From positions 1 to 23,654 of the IMG/VR virus record IMGVR_UViG_3300037459_000027: a DNA stretch of 23,654 bases; one strand, written 5' to 3'. The notes beneath the pieces are model-generated. The model was not told the DNA's origin. It saw nothing but the letters and a program-made list of their open reading frames with translations, and did not search any database. The DNA is from a virus. This document shows positions 14,559 through 23,654 of this stretch, one piece after another; within the stretch, counting starts at the first letter, position 1; every line of letters starts with the position of its first letter. Both the position numbers and the translations under genes were made by a program.

Positions 14559-14993
14559 TTATAGCGTTATGGTGAACCATCTGGTACACATAGGCGCTTG
14601 ATTGCGGACCATTATACCAGACTTCTCTGCTTGACGCAAGTATGCGTTCTGCACACCATACGCTTCCACCTCCCGCTGATTAGCCTGTTCGCAGGCTAGG
14701 CGACCGAACGAATTGTAGTCATTGTTCAAGTCCTGTAGCCAATGCGTGATCTCATGCACTAAAATGGACCTAGCGTAGATACTCTCGCTAAGGTCCTGCT
14801 CTTCGTCTAGGTATATCTTGCCATTGTGGTATACGCCTAGTATCCCGCACCCTTTAGGGGCGCTGGGGCATATCATGTGGTTGAGCTGGGCGGCGGGGAC
14901 GTAATTGATGTCCGGGTAGCCGCCGGGGTCCGCATACCCTGTCAGGAGTATGGTCCACATCATAAGGGACTTCATCATCTCTGCGAAGGCCAT
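14559..14993 (-). CDS. Secreted HExxH metalloprotease-like protein
   Basis: The 144-aa product has an N-terminal hydrophobic segment (MMKSLMMWTILLTGYA, residues 6-21) that looks like a signal peptide ending near TGYA. The core carries a zincin motif, HEITH (residues 80-84) inside ILVHEITHWLQ, with CEQANQREVEAYGVQNAYL (101-119) supplying possible third-ligand glutamates E108 or E110. Four cysteines after the signal region (42, 49, 101, 136) fit an exported, disulfide-bonded protein. The pattern resembles a family of small uncharacterised HExxH proteins (DUF6647-like, from memory). The ATG overlaps the lipoprotein gene stop (TAATG), so both are made together. Roles in cell-envelope passage or lysis are plausible but not shown. 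Confidence 0.65.
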   Translation of the reverse strand: MAFAEMMKSLMMWTILLTGYADPGGYPDINYVPAAQLNHMICPSAPKGCGILGVYHNGKIYLDEEQDLSESIYARSILVHEITHWLQDLNNDYNSFGRLACEQANQREVEAYGVQNAYLRQAEKSGIMVRNQAPMCTRWFTITL

Positions 14994-15322: not shown

Positions 15323-15539
15323 GTTCTCCTCTATGGGAGCGCCGACGAAGTCGGGCGCGAACCTAGAGATAGCCCCAAGTGTACTGAGACATATCTAGAA
15401 TGGTAGCAATCTAGTGATTGCATAAACCGTTCTTTTATGTATTAGACAATATTCAGATGGAAAAGTTCCCCATTTCTGTGAGAAATTAACGACCTCGCTT
15501 TCGTCGAAGACGATGCTTTTCGACCCCTCCCCCTCCCCC

Positions 15540-15566
15540 TTAACATAATCCTCTGGATTATGTTAA
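15540..15566. repeat. 12-bp inverted repeat with 3-nt loop
   Basis: TTAACATAATCC and GGATTATGTTAA are perfect inverted copies separated by TCT. Neither side carries a T-tract, so it is not a standard terminator. It directly abuts the C-run tract on its left. Confidence 0.7.
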
Positions 15567-15635
15567 ATAAAGAAAGATTATGGTGAATGGCACGATTATT
15601 GCATCGCGCAGGCGATAATATCGCACACGTATATG

Positions 15636-15657
15636 ACATATCAACATGTTGATATGT
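15636..15657. promoter_or_regulatory. Operator-like perfect 22-bp palindrome
   Basis: A 22-bp uninterrupted perfect palindrome centred on CATG contains half-sites TATCAAC (15639-15645) and GTTGATA (15648-15654). The same half-site recurs at 15693, next to the promoter. The symmetry and size fit a dimeric regulator site. No regulator gene is in the window. Confidence 0.55.
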
Positions 15658-15688
15658 TTACCAATTCGGAAACTTCCATACTGCTCAA

Positions 15689-15719
15689 GACTTATCAACT
15701 ACAGAGTAGTTGACAAGTC
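15689..15719. promoter_or_regulatory. Second operator-like inverted repeat overlapping the -35 box
   Basis: Arms GACTTATCAACTA and TAGTTGACAAGTC (13 bp, one mismatch) flank CAGAG. The left arm holds the same half-site, TATCAAC, as the 22-bp palindrome. The right arm's single change (GTTGACA instead of GTTGATA) creates a consensus TTGACA -35 element. A protein bound here would block sigma70 recognition, so this looks like a repression switch for the rightward operon. Confidence 0.55.
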
Positions 15720-15739
15720 CGTACACGTTACGGTATCAT
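15710..15739 (+). promoter_or_regulatory. Sigma70-type early promoter
   Basis: TTGACA (15710-15715, six of six consensus) and TATCAT (15734-15739, five of six) are 18 bp apart. Transcription would begin near 15747, giving a leader of about 100 nt before the first rightward gene. It is likely read by host RNA polymerase early in infection. Confidence 0.65.
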
Positions 15740-15780
15740 ACCGCGTATCGCGCCCGGTAACTACCACGCGAGGAGAACTT

Positions 15781-15831
15781 GGGGACTAGGATTCCCCCCA
15801 CATCACTTTGTGATGGGGGGAATCCGTCCCC
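15781..15831 (+). other. Strong leader hairpin just before the first rightward gene
   Basis: GGGGAC pairs with GTCCCC, GGATTCCCCCC with GGGGGGAATCC, and CATCAC with GTGATG around a TTT loop, leaving only small bulges. The stem ends 2 nt before the ribosome site AGGAG (15834-15838). An 18-codon TTG-initiated frame (15779 to TAG 15835), preceded by AGGAG with too short a gap (3 nt), spans the whole hairpin. Attenuator, RNA stabiliser or processing site are the options. There is no T-tract for termination. Confidence 0.6.
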
Positions 15832-15844
15832 CTAGGAGAGCAAA

Positions 15845-16078
15845 ATGACCAACCTCGGAGCAAGTCCAGCAGAGCTGGCTCATCTAGCTACGCTAGATGT
15901 AGAGCAAGGCCCCAAGGGACAGGGCATAACAGGACACCAAGGGTGTCCTGAAATGGACCTGACCCAAGTCGTCGAACATGACGGAAGTCACATAGTGACT
16001 TACGACGACATCATTGCAGCACACGACCAAGCTATCTACGATAGCTTAAAGGAGCTAGACGATGCCGATGACAGTTGA
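15845..16078 (+). CDS. First early-type gene, 77-aa acidic protein of unknown function
   Basis: ATG 15845 has AGGAG at a 6-nt gap. The 77-aa product is acidic, rich in Asp and His in its second half (VVEHDGSHIVTYDDIIAAHD), ends in ELDDADDS, and has no membrane segment. I recognise no family. As the first gene after a strong sigma70-type promoter it is probably a host-takeover protein, which is inference from position. The coding sequence is packed with perfect short hairpins (stems at 15866, 15881, 15930, 15985 and 16029), several with stems of 7-9 bp and 3-nt loops. Its end overlaps the next gene by 17 nt. Confidence 0.65.
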   Translation: MTNLGASPAELAHLATLDVEQGPKGQGITGHQGCPEMDLTQVVEHDGSHIVTYDDIIAAHDQAIYDSLKELDDADDS

Positions 16079-16310
16079 TGCAGCACTTCGTGCTGCTGCC
16101 GCCGAGTTCATGGCGAACCGTGCCCCTCCAGTGTTCATCACAGATGAACAAGTGGAGCGGGAAATGCAGACTCACATGCTCCAGTGTAGTTCCCAATGGG
16201 AACGACTGGAGTTCTACGGTCTACCTTTGGTAGACGACGAAGGATACTACGATGATACCCCAGTTTCACTGGGGATCATCTCACTGGATTCGCCGCCTCC
16301 CGCGTGGTAA
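16062..16310 (+). CDS. 82-aa acidic protein of unknown function
   Basis: The start is ATG 16062 (MPMTVDAAL), with AAGGAG 7 nt upstream inside the end of the previous gene. ATG 16068 is an alternative. The product begins with an Ala-rich helix (MTVDAALRAAAAEFMANR), has an ITDEQVEREMQTHML helix, and ends with an acidic, aromatic and Pro-rich segment (LVDDEGYYDDTPVS...SPPPAW). No known motif is seen. Its reading frame holds five strong hairpins: 16080, 16126, 16179, 16219, and a 13-bp stem with one bulged base at 16251. Conserved structure rather than free codon use may therefore constrain this gene. Confidence 0.6.
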   Translation: MPMTVDAALRAAAAEFMANRAPPVFITDEQVEREMQTHMLQCSSQWERLEFYGLPLVDDEGYYDDTPVSLGIISLDSPPPAW

Positions 16311-16336
16311 TCACCGCGTACGAGGCTCCGAAACTT

Positions 16337-16383
16337 CCCCTCTCGCAAGGGAGGAGTCTTACGACTCCCTTGCTAGAGAGGGG
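16337..16383 (+). other. Long intergenic hairpin
   Basis: CCCCTCTC pairs with GAGAGGGG, GCAAGGG with CCCTTGC, and AGTC with GACT around loop TTAC, separated by a 2-nt and a 3-nt bulge. This 47-nt, 19-bp element fills the gap between the 82-aa and 115-aa genes and has no T-tract. The architecture resembles the RNase III processing hairpins between T7 early genes, though that comparison is structural only. Confidence 0.6.
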
Positions 16384-16435
16384 AGAGAATGATGATGCCC
16401 AACAGACGAGGCCAAATGGCCCGAAGGAGTTGAAA

Positions 16436-16783
16436 ATGGGTGACAAGAGAACGTCCTTAAAGGACGTAATGGCTGCCATTGAGCAGCAAGCGACCAGCAT
16501 TGATGCGCTGGTCACGGCGTTGACCGCTGACGCTATTGCCCCGGCTGCTGCTAAAGCAGCACCGGCAGTTGGTGATACGCCGAAGGTGGAGGTAGCCGAA
16601 GGCTACTTGGCCAAGATGAACGAAAAGGCCGCAGCTCACGCCACTTCCAAAGGAAGTGAGGTCGTGCTTTATGCACGGAAGAACCAGCGTGGCGAGACCA
16701 AGCTGGCCTACGCATTGAGGGAGCGTTTCGATGCCCTCAATGACCGGGGCATGATTGGTCCGGTAGGCACGTTCCAGCCGTAG
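16436..16783 (+). CDS. 115-aa Ala-rich protein of unknown function
   Basis: The start is placed at ATG 16436 (MGDKRTSLKDVM), with GAAGGAG 8 nt upstream. An in-frame GTG at 16304 would place the long hairpin inside the gene and lacks a ribosome site. The N-terminus is helical (KDVMAAIEQQATSIDALVTALT). An Ala/Pro-rich linker (IAPAAAKAAPAVGD) follows, then a basic helical C-terminal half (YARKNQRGETKLAYALRERF). No family is recognised. A small DNA- or RNA-binding C-domain would fit the charge but is speculative. The gene contains about eight hairpins, and its TAG stop begins in the loop of the last one (16773-16789). Confidence 0.6.
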   Translation: MGDKRTSLKDVMAAIEQQATSIDALVTALTADAIAPAAAKAAPAVGDTPKVEVAEGYLAKMNEKAAAHATSKGSEVVLYARKNQRGETKLAYALRERFDALNDRGMIGPVGTFQP

Positions 16784-16798
16784 GCTGGAGCTACCATC

Positions 16799-16825
16799 GA
16801 GCACACTCTTTGAGTGTGCTCTTTT
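16799..16825 (+). terminator. Rho-independent terminator-like hairpin
   Basis: A perfect 10-bp stem GAGCACACTC / GAGTGTGCTC with a TTT loop (16799-16821) is followed by TTTT and lies 16 nt after the stop at 16783. It is the best terminator candidate of the rightward arm and would end the first early transcript. The T-tract is short, so termination may be partial. Confidence 0.7.
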
Positions 16826-17401
16826 GGTGGTCCCGTGATGGATTACCCGTGCCCATCGTAATGGGTTTGCTCTCGGCCTATGGCCGGTTGGACAGAAGGT
16901 AGCTAACTTAAAAGCCCGGCTATGTATCGGTATGTCTACCTGAAAGTCGTCGCTACAGTGCCTTATACAAGCGCACATCTAGGCACAGTACCATAGGTAC
17001 TGTGTCCTTGCTCATAGGTGTGGTCGGCGTGGCACTGGCGGCGCAGCTATATGTATGTGTGCGCTCGCGCGTACGCTTTGGTAGTCCCACAGAACGTGTG
17101 TTTTTTAATGGTGGCATCCAGTCTCAACTAATCGAACGCGGAAGGTGAACGGACACAGTAAGAAGGCGCCATAACTATTCCAACTAGCCGTGCTATTCTG
17201 CAAGTAGACTGACCGAGTGGAAAACTGGAGCCACCAGTTAAAGAACATAAGGGGGACCTGCCCTCACCAAGTAGCTATGGATATAAGATACACCACATAT
17301 CTGCACTGTCGCTGACAAGGTCTTACTAGACTACGTCCTGTGGACCAGAGGTCGAGTGTAAAGGCAGGCCCCCGCCTATTAACCCACCATTGGAGAGACC
17401 A
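16826..17401 (+). other. Gap of about 580 bp without a convincing gene
   Basis: This stretch between the terminator and the pseudopilin gene contains short stems at 16852-16865 (CCCAT/ATGGG), 16874-16886 (CGGCC-TAT-GGCCG) and 16984-17004. It also has two 24-26 codon frames near 16922 and 17051 without ribosome sites, and a T6 run at 17101 without a clear stem. TATAAG near 17279 could be a -10 box for the downstream operon, but no good -35 is visible. A 173-codon frame on the opposite strand (16457-16978) overlaps the 115-aa gene and has no start signal. A small RNA or a promoter region is possible. Confidence 0.4.
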
Positions 17402-17896
17402 ATGAAGAAGCAACAAGGACTGACCCTGCTCGAACTGTTGATAGGACTGGTGATTGCCAGCATCCTATTGATCATGGCTAATGCCACGTTCGGTAACGCA
17501 GGCATTGAGTGCAAGCCTGACGGCGCACGACCCGGCTATGTAACACGAGCACGTATTGCCAACGCTATTGGCAAGCTGGGCGAGGTGAACCTCAAGATAC
17601 AGAGGTTTGAGTTGATGCACAACAGGTTCCCTGTTAGCCTCGACGAACTCAACCTACCAACACCCACTGACCCGTGGGGTAATGAGTACGTGTTCCTCAG
17701 CTTCAAGGATGTCAATGGCAACGGACCCAAGCGCAAGTACAAGAGTCAAGTACCTGTGAACAGGTACTTCGATGTGTATAGCATGGGACCAGACGGTAAG
17801 ACAGCCACACCTATGGTGTCCCAACCCGGATGCGATGACATTCTCGTAGCTGGTGATGGGTACTATGTAGGTGTAGCCTACTGGTTCAATGACTGA
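17402..17896 (+). CDS. Type II secretion GspG-like pseudopilin encoded by the phage
   Basis: The start is ATG 17402, with GGAGAG directly upstream; an in-frame TTG at 17390 overlaps that site and is unlikely. The 164-aa product has a textbook prepilin leader: MKKQQG, cleavage, then LTLLELLIGLVIASILL, with Glu at mature position 5 (E11) and a hydrophobic helix to about residue 27. The globular part has the GspG hallmarks: a short helix and FPVSLDEL, then PTDPWGNEYVF (88-98), FDVYSMGPDGK (123-133) and GCDDI (143-147), the last resembling the calcium-binding loop. C37 and C144 may form a disulfide. Processing would need the host prepilin peptidase. Roles such as disturbing host secretion or pili, or superinfection exclusion, are inference. 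Confidence 0.85.
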   Translation: MKKQQGLTLLELLIGLVIASILLIMANATFGNAGIECKPDGARPGYVTRARIANAIGKLGEVNLKIQRFELMHNRFPVSLDELNLPTPTDPWGNEYVFLSFKDVNGNGPKRKYKSQVPVNRYFDVYSMGPDGKTATPMVSQPGCDDILVAGDGYYVGVAYWFND

Positions 17897-19907: not shown

Positions 19908-20095
19908 ACAGTAACAACTGGTGTCACTATGTAATACTCAACTTCATAGTGGTAGCACTATGCCTCATTAGCTACCGCATATGGGAAGTCGGTGAGCTAT
20001 TACGTGATCGTCACGAGGCAGCAGTAACGGCAGAGTGTACTGCCCCTACTGTATGTCGTAATGAGTTCGGACAACGGAAGGAGTGTAACAAATGA
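19904..20095 (+). CDS. 63-aa membrane-anchored protein
   Basis: ATG 19904 overlaps the previous stop (ATGA). The N-terminus carries one hydrophobic helix (CHYVILNFIVVALCLISYRI, residues 7-26), followed by a charged helical segment (WEVGELLRDRHEAAV) and a Cys-containing tail (AECTAPTVC...KECNK). The layout of short cytoplasmic lead, single span and soluble tail resembles an inner-membrane spanin or a superinfection protein, but no lysis gene is confirmed nearby. Competing hairpins (CATAGTG-GTAG-CACTATG, and an upstream CACTATG copy) lie at 19925-19962. Confidence 0.55.
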   Translation: MNSNNWCHYVILNFIVVALCLISYRIWEVGELLRDRHEAAVTAECTAPTVCRNEFGQRKECNK

Positions 20096-20963: not shown

Positions 20964-21178
20964 AGACCAAGGACATTGGCCTTGCTGATCAGCTAGTGAT
21001 GGACGACTTCGTTCGCACACTGATAGGGTTGATGTTCGATTGCGACAACGACACGGCAGAGCTAGAGGTCGTGCTCAATAACACAGACGGTGGTGAAAAG
21101 CCTCGCCTGCTGTTGGAACTTAAACTCACCGCCATCAATGGCAAGCCGACACAAGGAGCAGATGATGCCGCAGGGTAG
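20948..21178 (+). CDS. 76-aa acidic protein of unknown function
   Basis: ATG 20948 (MSDEVKTKDIGLADQL) has GAAGGAG upstream within the previous gene. The product is acidic, with a helical first half (LVMDDFVRTLIGLMFDCDND) and a beta-like second half (AELEVVLNNTDGGEKPRLLL). Its end overlaps the AAA+ gene start by 14 nt and carries the ribosome site (AAGGAG) of that gene. It may be a partner of the AAA+/VWA pair, by position only. Confidence 0.6.
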   Translation: MSDEVKTKDIGLADQLVMDDFVRTLIGLMFDCDNDTAELEVVLNNTDGGEKPRLLLELKLTAINGKPTQGADDAAG

Positions 21179-22253
21179 CTCACTCAAGGGTAAGTATGAC
21201 AGTGATGTGATCGCTGCCATTGTCGAGACCCGACAACAAGAGGAAATGGCTAATGTCACCGACCCCCTCACCGAGATTGCTGAGTTCAAAATTGACAAAC
21301 CCGAAGGGTTTGTGCTCTTCAGCGACGTATTCTGGAAACCCAAAGAGATACCGGACATTGCCTTCCCAATGTTCAAGCTTGAAGATTGGGATGAAGAGGC
21401 CCAGTTCCATATCCCGGCTGTCGATCCCCACTGGATTTGGAACAAGAAAGTTACGGAAAAATTTGCGCTCGCTATGTCTTGCGGAGATACCACATTGCTT
21501 CACGGTCTCCAAGGGACTGGTAAGTCTTGCCTCGCTGAACAGTGGTGCGCTAAGTTTATCATCCCGGCGTGGCGCATGTCATGTAACCGAGAGACCAGAG
21601 AGGGACACTTCCTTGGTTCACCCGGAGTAGAGTATGATGCCGAAGGTAAGATGTTCATCAAGCAGGAGCCAACACTCCTTACTGACTCGCTCAAATACGG
21701 TGGTATGTTCATCGAAGATGAAGCGTTTCGACACAATGCAGCGCTCGTGCTTCAGTCGCTCCGAGAGAAGAACACTCGCAGCCTTATGCTCCCAGATGCA
21801 CCGGGTCGGACCAGCGCTGACCGTAAACTCACTGCACCTGTCGGTCGATGGTGGTACGTTCTTACGGATAATACATGTGGATCAGGTGATGAAACGGGTA
21901 TCTTCGATGCTGAAGTCCAAGACGCATCTACGCTTGACAGAGTGGGTGCATCTATCGAAGTTAAGTACCTTAGTAAAGCGCAAGAGAGGCGCATACTCAA
22001 AAAGCATTGCGATCTGAACATACAGATCATTGACGGTATGCTGGAGTTCGCCAAGCTAGTGCGCCTAGCGTTTGAGGACCAGACCCTACTGTCTACGTTC
22101 AGTGTCCGATCCCTGTTAGCATGGGTCGAGAAGACTGCAATGACAGGCAGCATAGAGCTGGGCCTCCAACTCACATGGTACGACAAGCTGTGCGGTGACG
22201 ACAAGGCCACCGTCAGAGATATGTTTCATCAGGTATTTGAGAGGACGCTATGA
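21165..22253 (+). CDS. AAA+ ATPase of the CobS/MoxR type
   Basis: The start is ATG 21165 (MPQGSSLKGKYDSD), 6 nt after AAGGAG; ATG 21162 has too short a gap. The 362-aa protein has Walker A GLQGTGKS (114-121), Walker B MFIEDE (181-186), sensor 1 VLTDNT (N236), a DRVG arginine-finger region (R259) and a sensor 2 FSVRSLL (R315). This layout matches the CobS and MoxR clades, whose members work with VWA-domain partners as chaperone or chelatase machines. The partner gene follows with an ATGA overlap. No cobalamin gene is present, so cobalt chelation is unlikely; protein remodelling is the better guess. Hairpins with GAA loops occur at 21295 and 21708. Confidence 0.88.
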   Translation: MPQGSSLKGKYDSDVIAAIVETRQQEEMANVTDPLTEIAEFKIDKPEGFVLFSDVFWKPKEIPDIAFPMFKLEDWDEEAQFHIPAVDPHWIWNKKVTEKFALAMSCGDTTLLHGLQGTGKSCLAEQWCAKFIIPAWRMSCNRETREGHFLGSPGVEYDAEGKMFIKQEPTLLTDSLKYGGMFIEDEAFRHNAALVLQSLREKNTRSLMLPDAPGRTSADRKLTAPVGRWWYVLTDNTCGSGDETGIFDAEVQDASTLDRVGASIEVKYLSKAQERRILKKHCDLNIQIIDGMLEFAKLVRLAFEDQTLLSTFSVRSLLAWVEKTAMTGSIELGLQLTWYDKLCGDDKATVRDMFHQVFERTL

Positions 22254-23654
22254 CTAAGATTGCATCCGTATTGGATGTTGACCACATCACCAGTGTACTC
22301 CATCGTAGATGCCAGTCACATGGTGTCACGTTGGAGTGGACAAACTCTGCTAACGTAGCCATGACCAATGGGGAGCGCATCATACTCCCCAAGATTAAGC
22401 AGCCCGTCACTCAAGAGGCGCTCGATAATCTGTACGGTTACGTGATACATGAGTGTGGTCACCATTCAAGGCCCGAAGCGTTCACCATTATGAACGCAGC
22501 TAAACCACCCGATGCAGTATGTGCTATGTACAACATCATTGAAGATGATGGGATGGAGCGAGAGGTAGCACAGATGTACAGTGGTGACGCCAAGGCACTA
22601 GGTATGCACAACTCACGGACTATCAAAGAGATTAGTGAGAAGTGGACCTCTAGTGCTCATGAGTGGCCCGAGAATTTAACGGAGCAGGACATAGCTCCGA
22701 TGGCAGTCACTACATTGGGGCAGCTATCCCGCATGGCGTGGGACAGTTGGTCCAATACCAACCGACACCTCTTTATGAATAGCCTGCCGCCAGTAGCCGG
22801 GAAACTGGTGGATGATCTAGTGAACGAGGGTTGGGTCGAGCGAATGGAGCAGACACAGGACCCATATGAAACATGGGACGTAGCAATAGACCTAGTGAAG
22901 CGGCTGTACCCTGACGTTGACGACGAGAAGCTTGAAGAGTGTCGCCAGAAGGGACACGATGGCCCACCTGAAGAGGACGACGAGTCAGGTAAGGAACCCG
23001 GTGAGGAAGGAGAAGGTGATGGTCAAGGTGAGGGTGAAGGTCAACAGGGCAAGGATGAATCGAATGATGACGGCGGCGATGGTGGAGCAGATGCACCAGC
23101 ACAATCGGAACAAGGTAAATGTGGCCCACTTACTGATGCGGAAGGCAAGCTACCCGGCGAGGGCAAAATTATACATTGGAAGGAAGCTGTCGCCTCCCAG
23201 CATGACGAATGGAAACCTAAAGACCCAAATGCACCGGCTGGGAATGTCGGGATTGATTGGACTGACTACTCAAGAGGTAGTGTCGTACTTATGCCACAAA
23301 AGCTAATCAATGTGGTGGACTGTACCAAGCACGGCAATGAGCCGGTGTCGCATGATAGCTACCACAGTTGCGGTTCACCGGGCAGTTTCATGCCTGACAA
23401 TGCGTCGAGCCGATCATTTGCCAACCAAATCAGACGCTACATACAAGCACAAGCCCGTGTCCAATTCGATAGCGAGAAGTTTCATGGTCGGCTTGACAAG
23501 CGTGGGATTGTGAGGTTGGCACTACCACCCATTGATGGTGGTGAGTGGAACAAGAAGATATTCTACGAGATGCGATTGGCCGATGCGAGGTCCACCTGCA
23601 TCATGGTACTCACCGACTGGTCCGGTTCAATGAACGGGATGAAGATGGTACATG
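22250..23654 (+). CDS. CobT-like VWA-domain protein with HECGH metalloprotease-like motif (3' end outside window)
   Basis: ATG 22250 overlaps the AAA+ stop (ATGA), and the frame stays open for 468 codons to the window edge. Residues 60-100 hold a zincin-like signature: YVIHECGHHSRPE (HExxH at 67-71), then YNIIEDDGME (94-103) with a possible third ligand E98. Residues about 225-290 are an acidic low-complexity linker (PGEEGEGDGQGEGEGQQG). At the end is a MIDAS motif, VLTDWSGSM (DxSxS, D456, S458, S460), opening a von Willebrand A domain. CobT-like partners of MoxR/CobS ATPases have an acidic linker and a VWA domain, and many also keep HExxH. The pair probably forms an ATP-driven remodelling or proteolysis complex. 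Its substrate is unknown. Confidence 0.85.
   Translation, partial: MTKIASVLDVDHITSVLHRRCQSHGVTLEWTNSANVAMTNGERIILPKIKQPVTQEALDNLYGYVIHECGHHSRPEAFTIMNAAKPPDAVCAMYNIIEDDGMEREVAQMYSGDAKALGMHNSRTIKEISEKWTSSAHEWPENLTEQDIAPMAVTTLGQLSRMAWDSWSNTNRHLFMNSLPPVAGKLVDDLVNEGWVERMEQTQDPYETWDVAIDLVKRLYPDVDDEKLEECRQKGHDGPPEEDDESGKEPGEEGEGDGQGEGEGQQGKDESNDDGGDGGADAPAQSEQGKCGPLTDAEGKLPGEGKIIHWKEAVASQHDEWKPKDPNAPAGNVGIDWTDYSRGSVVLMPQKLINVVDCTKHGNEPVSHDSYHSCGSPGSFMPDNASSRSFANQIRRYIQAQARVQFDSEKFHGRLDKRGIVRLALPPIDGGEWNKKIFYEMRLADARSTCIMVLTDWSGSMNGMKMVH

Follow-up and report, generated by a model that had tools for sequence, protein, structure and literature searches.

Why should the first early genes of a phage be crowded with short, perfect hairpins, and does selection act on them as DNA, as RNA or not at all? 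The question is raised by the window analyzed here, a virus record of 23,654 bp, for which an initial annotation described about 24 inverted repeats between positions 15866 and 17004, thirteen of them with perfect stems of at least 7 bp and loops of exactly 3 nt. All thirteen were found there, and a scan of the whole window gave 22 such stems where 1.4 are expected. Dinucleotide shuffles of 15866-17004 contained a mean of 0.06 stems (maximum 2 in 500 shuffles) against the 13 observed, and synonymous-codon shuffles within genes, the control by which the annotation proposed that its claim could fail, produced only 0.08-0.24 stems per gene where 2-4 are seen, which rules out composition or codon usage as the cause. 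Single-strand folding is likewise far from random (z = -12.5 as DNA and -11.8 as RNA). The figure of about 24 is fair once imperfect stems are admitted; our own count is 19 triloop stems with 6 bp or more, accompanied by one stem with a 4-nt loop and several interrupted larger stems (Table 1). The proposed boundaries are too narrow: the array extends over approximately 15472-17004 and starts ahead of the predicted early promoter, in non-coding DNA. A spacing of 35-55 bp had also been claimed; intervals of 45-55 bp occur within 15.88-16.15 kb only and later gaps reach 193 bp, and strongly regular spacing is not supported (median 51 bp, CV 0.8).

The stems in the window all differ, the loops vary and the loop centers fall in every codon phase, just as had been described, which rejects both a peptide repeat and a dispersed repeat; copies of a dispersed or tandem repeat family share sequence, and the listed stems are mutually different. 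Nor is the array a series of terminators, as the hairpin that follows gene 3 is alone among its stems in having a good run of T residues on the + strand, and that one could be an ordinary terminator. Relatives carry equivalents of the large 5' untranslated hairpin that precedes the first gene. A long imperfect hairpin of about 20 bp (16337-16384) directly precedes the point where early gene 3 probably starts.

Table 1. Features of the hairpin array and its surroundings in the window (a dot marks features given no strand).
Feature	Position	Strand	Remarks
Hairpin ATTTCT-GTG-AGAAAT	15472..15486	+	ATTTCTNTGAGAAAT-like, before C-rich tract in relatives
C-rich tract	15521..15539	+	Probable start region of terminal repeat, by analogy with ICBM1
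Hairpin, 12-bp perfect stem, loop TCT	15540..15566	.	Upstream of early promoter
Hairpin, 9-bp stem, 4-nt loop CATG	15636..15657	.	Upstream of early promoter
Hairpin, 8-bp stem, loop AGA	15695..15713	.	Overlaps -35 element of early promoter
Predicted sigma70-type early promoter TTGACA-18-TATCAT	15710..15739	+	11/12 matches
Large 5' untranslated hairpin GGATTCCCCCC...CATCAC-TTT-GTGATG...GGGGGGAATCC	15790..15825	+	Directly before first gene
Early gene 1, 77 aa	15845..16078	+	No family match; 4 triloop stems of at least 7 bp
Triloop hairpin CATCTAGC-TAC-GCTAGATG	15881..15899	.	
Triloop hairpin CAGGACACC-AAG-GGTGTCCTG	15930..15950	.	
Triloop hairpin AAGTCAC-ATA-GTGACTT	15985..16001	.	
Triloop hairpin AAGCTATC-TAC-GATAGCTT	16029..16047	.	
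Early gene 2, 82 aa	16062..16310	+	No family match
Triloop hairpin GCAGCAC-TTC-GTGCTGC	16080..16096	.	
Triloop hairpin TGTTCATC-ACA-GATGAACA	16132..16150	.	Same in L071; compensated GTATTCATC-ACT-GATGAATAC in L073
Triloop hairpin GTTCCC-AAT-GGGAAC	16189..16203	.	Same in L071
Triloop hairpin GTCTACC-TTT-GGTAGAC	16219..16235	.	Site lost in L071, another hairpin nearby
Triloop hairpin CCCCAGT-TTC-ACTGGGG	16258..16274	.	Compensated in L071: CTCCAGT-TAC-ACTGGAG
Early gene 3, 115 aa from ATG 16436 (open frame from 16304)	16436..16783	+	Kept in closer relatives
Triloop hairpin ACGTCCT-TAA-AGGACGT	16451..16467	.	
Triloop hairpin GTAGCC-GAA-GGCTAC	16592..16606	.	Same in L071
Triloop hairpin CACTTCC-AAA-GGAAGTG	16642..16658	.	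L071 T-A to A-T compensated: CACTACC-AAA-GGTAGTG
Triloop hairpin TCCAGCC-GTA-GGCTGGA	16773..16789	.	Same in L071
Triloop hairpin GAGCACACTC-TTT-GAGTGTGCTC then TTTT	16799..16821	+	After gene 3
Triloop hairpin CACAGTACC-ATA-GGTACTGTG	16984..17004	.	Last of the array

The window is a fragment of the genome of an uncultured Zobellviridae-like podovirus that is kin to the cobaviruses. Its terminase matches those of cobaviruses at 55-57% (about 57% for ICBM1 and P12053L) and those of ICP2 and GP100 at about 49%, and homologs of the terminase, portal, tail and internal virion proteins are found together with shared core genes. The genome plan of its clade is also that of the Zobellviridae cobavirus group (SIO1, P12053L, ICBM1, ICP2, GP100), as are the lack of an RNA polymerase, a trait that was checked on the relatives because the window itself is a fragment, and the terminal repeats at a module junction, as known from ICBM1. 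In the window the modules lie on opposite strands, with structure and packaging genes running leftward and early and replication genes running rightward, and the array is located at the junction between them. The terminal repeat of ICBM1 sits at the junction of two gene modules and begins near a C-rich tract, and a similar tract occurs at 15521 in the window and in all of the relatives. Since both the tract and the position of the junction correspond to those of ICBM1, the tract probably marks the start region of a direct terminal repeat and thus a genome end, although the ICBM1 repeat itself gave no significant match to the window by direct BLAST. Repeats at the contig ends of G001 and G003-G005 were considered as markers of the genome end and discarded, as they are inexact and lie at differing places and hence do not locate it. 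In most of the relatives read, a motif resembling ATTTCTNTGAGAAAT directly precedes the C-rich tract, and a similar sequence precedes the mapped ICBM1 terminal repeat at a short distance; this motif is a candidate for a terminase cutting or recognition signal.

Several neighboring genes deserve comment in their own right. Adjoining the genome-end region on the - strand (14559-14993) is a gene for a small protein with an HEITH metalloprotease-like motif, which gave only a weak match to Peptidase_M64, below the cut-off. The early module includes a gene on the + strand (17390-17896) whose product matches T2SS protein G and bears the N-terminal methylation motif of type IV prepilins and pseudopilins, which is unusual for a phage early region. 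Adjacent genes for a CobS-like AAA ATPase and a CobT-like VWA protein (21090-23653, + strand) are kept in the array-bearing relatives, and more weakly in ICP2, and are probably of the MoxR/VWA type rather than involved in cobalamin synthesis.

Relatives were gathered from viral contigs with terminase, portal and early genes as queries, and seven lineages (the window, L071, L073, L074, L075, L098, and L090) have the array, each with 18-33 triloop stems that are 6 bp or longer. It spans the same -250 to +1500 bp relative to the conserved C-rich tract in all seven, with sharp edges, and is the sole dense cluster in each of five near-complete genomes of 45-50 kb. An eighth lineage, L143, was found later with the CobS-like ATPase, a gene outside the array, as the query, and it too has an array, in which 13 of 15 closing pairs are C-G. 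Over all of these lineages a stretch of about 1.5 kb at the start of the early genes holds 15-33 short, perfect and mostly different hairpins. The same scan found no array in isolates outside the clade, namely cobaviruses, ICP2 and GP100, nor in phage N4. A further candidate, L054, was rejected because its densest stretch has many hairpins of all loop sizes, an abundance that follows from the AT-richness of that stretch (25% GC). Early gene 3 of the L075 lineage gave no BLASTP match among the open frames compared in L090 or L098, while the array persists in both, which speaks for a property tied to the location rather than to the genes. No homologs of early gene 3 were found in the annotated phages or in bacterial genomes. 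Lineages have few stem sequences in common. Many hairpins are at different positions from one lineage to another, such that density rather than any single site seems to be kept. In L090 a predicted early promoter (20039-20067 of the reverse complement) has its 17-bp spacer inside a hairpin with an 11-bp stem, ACATAGACCCC-AAA-GGGGTCTATGT; when an N4 hairpin was inserted into an Escherichia coli promoter in a like arrangement, that promoter was switched off under supercoiling (PMC4496689).

While the sequences differ, the hairpins follow a strict grammar, with the most frequent stem length being 7 bp and the loop 3 nt. Stems of 5, 6, 7, 8, and 9 bp number 30, 48, 65, 33, and 14, against 8.8, 2.2, 0.6, 0.1, and 0.0 expected, and there are 122 perfect 7-bp stems where 0.7 would be expected. 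The closing pair is C-G in 127 of 153 cases, the remainder being T-A (17), G-C (7) and A-T (2). The loops GAA (27), TTT (26), ATA (14), and TCT (13) outnumber their complements TTC (12), AAA (11), TAT (4), and AGA (3), an asymmetry that favors the early-gene (+) strand (permutation p = 0.00015, n = 170) but which alone cannot separate DNA from RNA, as the mRNA carries the same strand sequence. The flanks have no consensus and share no sequence beyond the closing pair.

The grammar raises the issue of which molecule is folded. If the hairpins were structures of the early transcripts, serving in mRNA stability, processing, translation control, evasion of RNA-targeting defense or as sites for RNA-binding proteins, then G-U pairs should be common, because the inner pairs are A-T about half of the time, as often as they are G-C. 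They are excluded instead. Among 7-bp stems with a single inner mismatch there are two with G.T and six with A.C, near chance, beside the 122 that are perfect, and one-sided changes between relatives lead to G-T no more often than to A-C (16 and 15, respectively). Two-sided changes keep Watson-Crick pairing in 36 cases and break it in seven, these counts of changes not being independent as they include reciprocal comparisons and two identity thresholds. The initial annotation had looked to uncompensated stem substitutions in relatives as evidence against its proposal, and compensated ones are seen, as in CCCCAGT/ACTGGGG to CTCCAGT/ACTGGAG, CACTTCC/GGAAGTG to CACTACC/GGTAGTG, and CATTGTC/GACAATG to CATCGTC/GACGATG. 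In addition, 39 hairpins lie upstream of predicted transcription starts and 26 of these have the 5' C at the closing pair, the promoters being consensus matches of which those in L073, L075, and L098 are weak; where the prediction is good, in the window, L071, L074, and L090, a hairpin overlaps the promoter. A search of Rfam gave no match up to E = 1. Most of the hairpins do lie within the predicted early transcript, whose RNA also folds far better than chance and whose strand carries the favored loops, and the 5' untranslated hairpin and the T-tailed hairpin after gene 3 resemble ordinary RNA elements. Nevertheless, we regard selection at the RNA level as rather unlikely, and the suggestion of a selected mRNA architecture in the initial annotation is not borne out. 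From the lack of G-U excess, the retention of Watson-Crick pairing and the hairpins upstream of the predicted starts, we infer that DNA rather than RNA is the acting molecule.

The main rival to selection is mutational. Intrastrand template switching, in which quasi-palindrome correction perfects near-palindromes, could have been boosted here by heavy early transcription and R-loops and have left hairpins with little or no function. Transcription-associated quasi-palindrome mutation has been documented in yeast (PMC3820800). Such mutations, like the array, feature perfect inverted repeats, small loops and arms that evolve together, and template switching would account for the strictly Watson-Crick stems, their mostly unrelated sequences, the turnover of positions and the coordinated change of the two arms. 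However, quasi-palindrome mutations are known as scattered hotspots, while the array is bounded, at a fixed place, and fixed in loop size and closing pair. By itself the process leaves unexplained why the hairpins are sharply confined to the same interval in seven lineages, why 3-nt loops and C-G closure are strongly preferred, and why cobaviruses, ICP2, GP100, and N4 have no arrays. Stems also diverge less than their flanks in several comparisons, though not all: 0.112 against 0.218 from the window to L071 (p = 0.003), 0.112 against 0.307 from L075 to L073 (p = 3.6e-05) and 0.053 against 0.293 from L074 to L073 (p = 0.0006), with the difference from L071 to the window not being significant. 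Hence template switching, which the initial annotation had also put forward, may contribute but is unlikely to be the origin of the array. Were it so, the process would have left in the array a natural record of unusual density.

A DNA-hairpin function, the option of the initial annotation that is best supported, calls to mind the promoters of the N4 virion RNA polymerase. These are hairpins whose GRA triloops are closed by C-G; they extrude at superhelical densities lower than the physiological level, and at the early promoters SSB leaves the hairpin of one strand standing (PMC4496689). The array resembles them in stem length (5-7 bp), 3-nt loops, GNA-type loop sequences and C-G closure (127 of 153), and in its place at the first early genes near a genome end. 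The scan that detected the arrays recovers single hairpins of this form in N4, including AAGAAGC-TCC-GCTTCTT, whose complement has the promoter form with a GGA loop and is, we presume, a mapped N4 promoter. It is nevertheless highly improbable that the array is a set of single-strand hairpin promoters, many in place of three, for an injected polymerase of the N4 type. N4 has three promoters of shared sequence and a giant virion polymerase, while the arrays have 15-33 hairpins of mostly unshared sequence, with variable loops and flanks that lack conserved start-site bases, and no such enzyme was found. None of five genomes gave a PF00940 match to a phage-type RNA polymerase, and N4 as the positive control did, with a strong match for RNAPII and a weak one (E = 0.007) for the frame of the giant polymerase, which leaves some room for a very diverged enzyme. 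Moreover, the match of the large virion protein is to a family of internal virion proteins, and the strand with the GNA loops would template leftward transcription. Another possibility is that the zone, through single-strand hairpins at the genome end, signals a step of DNA processing, be it the resolution of concatemers, the formation of terminal repeats or packaging. The array does surround the conserved C-rich tract, which resembles the start of mapped cobavirus terminal repeats, but it extends, on just one side, some 1.5 kb into coding sequence, well past a terminal repeat of 160-170 bp, and no array accompanies the terminal repeats of related phages, such that this role is distinctly unlikely.

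We therefore propose, as a tentative reading whose chances we put slightly below even, that selection maintains the array as a structural element of the DNA itself, a zone of some 1.5-1.7 kb beside the probable genome end. The zone is seeded with short, strictly Watson-Crick, C-G-closed triloop mini-hairpins, and by analogy with the N4 hairpins the early-gene (+) strand would fold into a string of stable hairpins upon negative supercoiling or strand displacement. The likeliest occasions would be early transcription and the onset of replication, in which the + strand would be the displaced non-template strand or, with a rightward fork, the first lagging-strand template. The hairpins could then hold the displaced + strand folded and hinder its re-annealing, and they may also influence the early promoter, itself overlapped by a hairpin. 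The interpretation given in the initial annotation thus stands in part, in its DNA option and not in its mRNA option.

Function by way of hairpins in an exposed DNA strand has precedents in the leading regions of conjugative plasmids and in phage G4-type origins. Such single-strand initiation sites and promoters consist of one or a few specific structures, while the array has dozens that are mostly unrelated. To our knowledge there is no described counterpart of a DNA-level hairpin array of this kind, and a full-text search on phage hairpins, triloops and early regions yielded no paper. The array also differs from the viral inverted repeats of a survey of 118,019 genomes, which was confined to arms of at least 10 bp and in which viruses prefer spacers of 0 or 4 and an intergenic concentration (PMC13155455). 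The cobavirus isolates examined, for all their likeness to the window clade in genome plan, terminase, portal and tail proteins, lack an array.

Selection on DNA, rather than RNA, secondary structure inside coding genes can rarely be demonstrated, and here the signal from the pairing rules, the loop grammar and the position is clear in no fewer than eight phage lineages. It is possible, and we hold this broader view with somewhat more reserve, that an array of DNA mini-hairpins fixed in position but free in sequence, located at the entry or replication end of a phage genome, represents a new class of viral genome element, one selected for strand-specific folding and overlaid on coding genes and the early promoter as a structural switch driven by supercoiling or strand displacement. 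If so, the physics of the N4 hairpins would apply not to three promoters alone but to an entire zone of a genome, and this would bear on supercoiling, strand displacement and the start of replication in phage DNA as it enters the cell.
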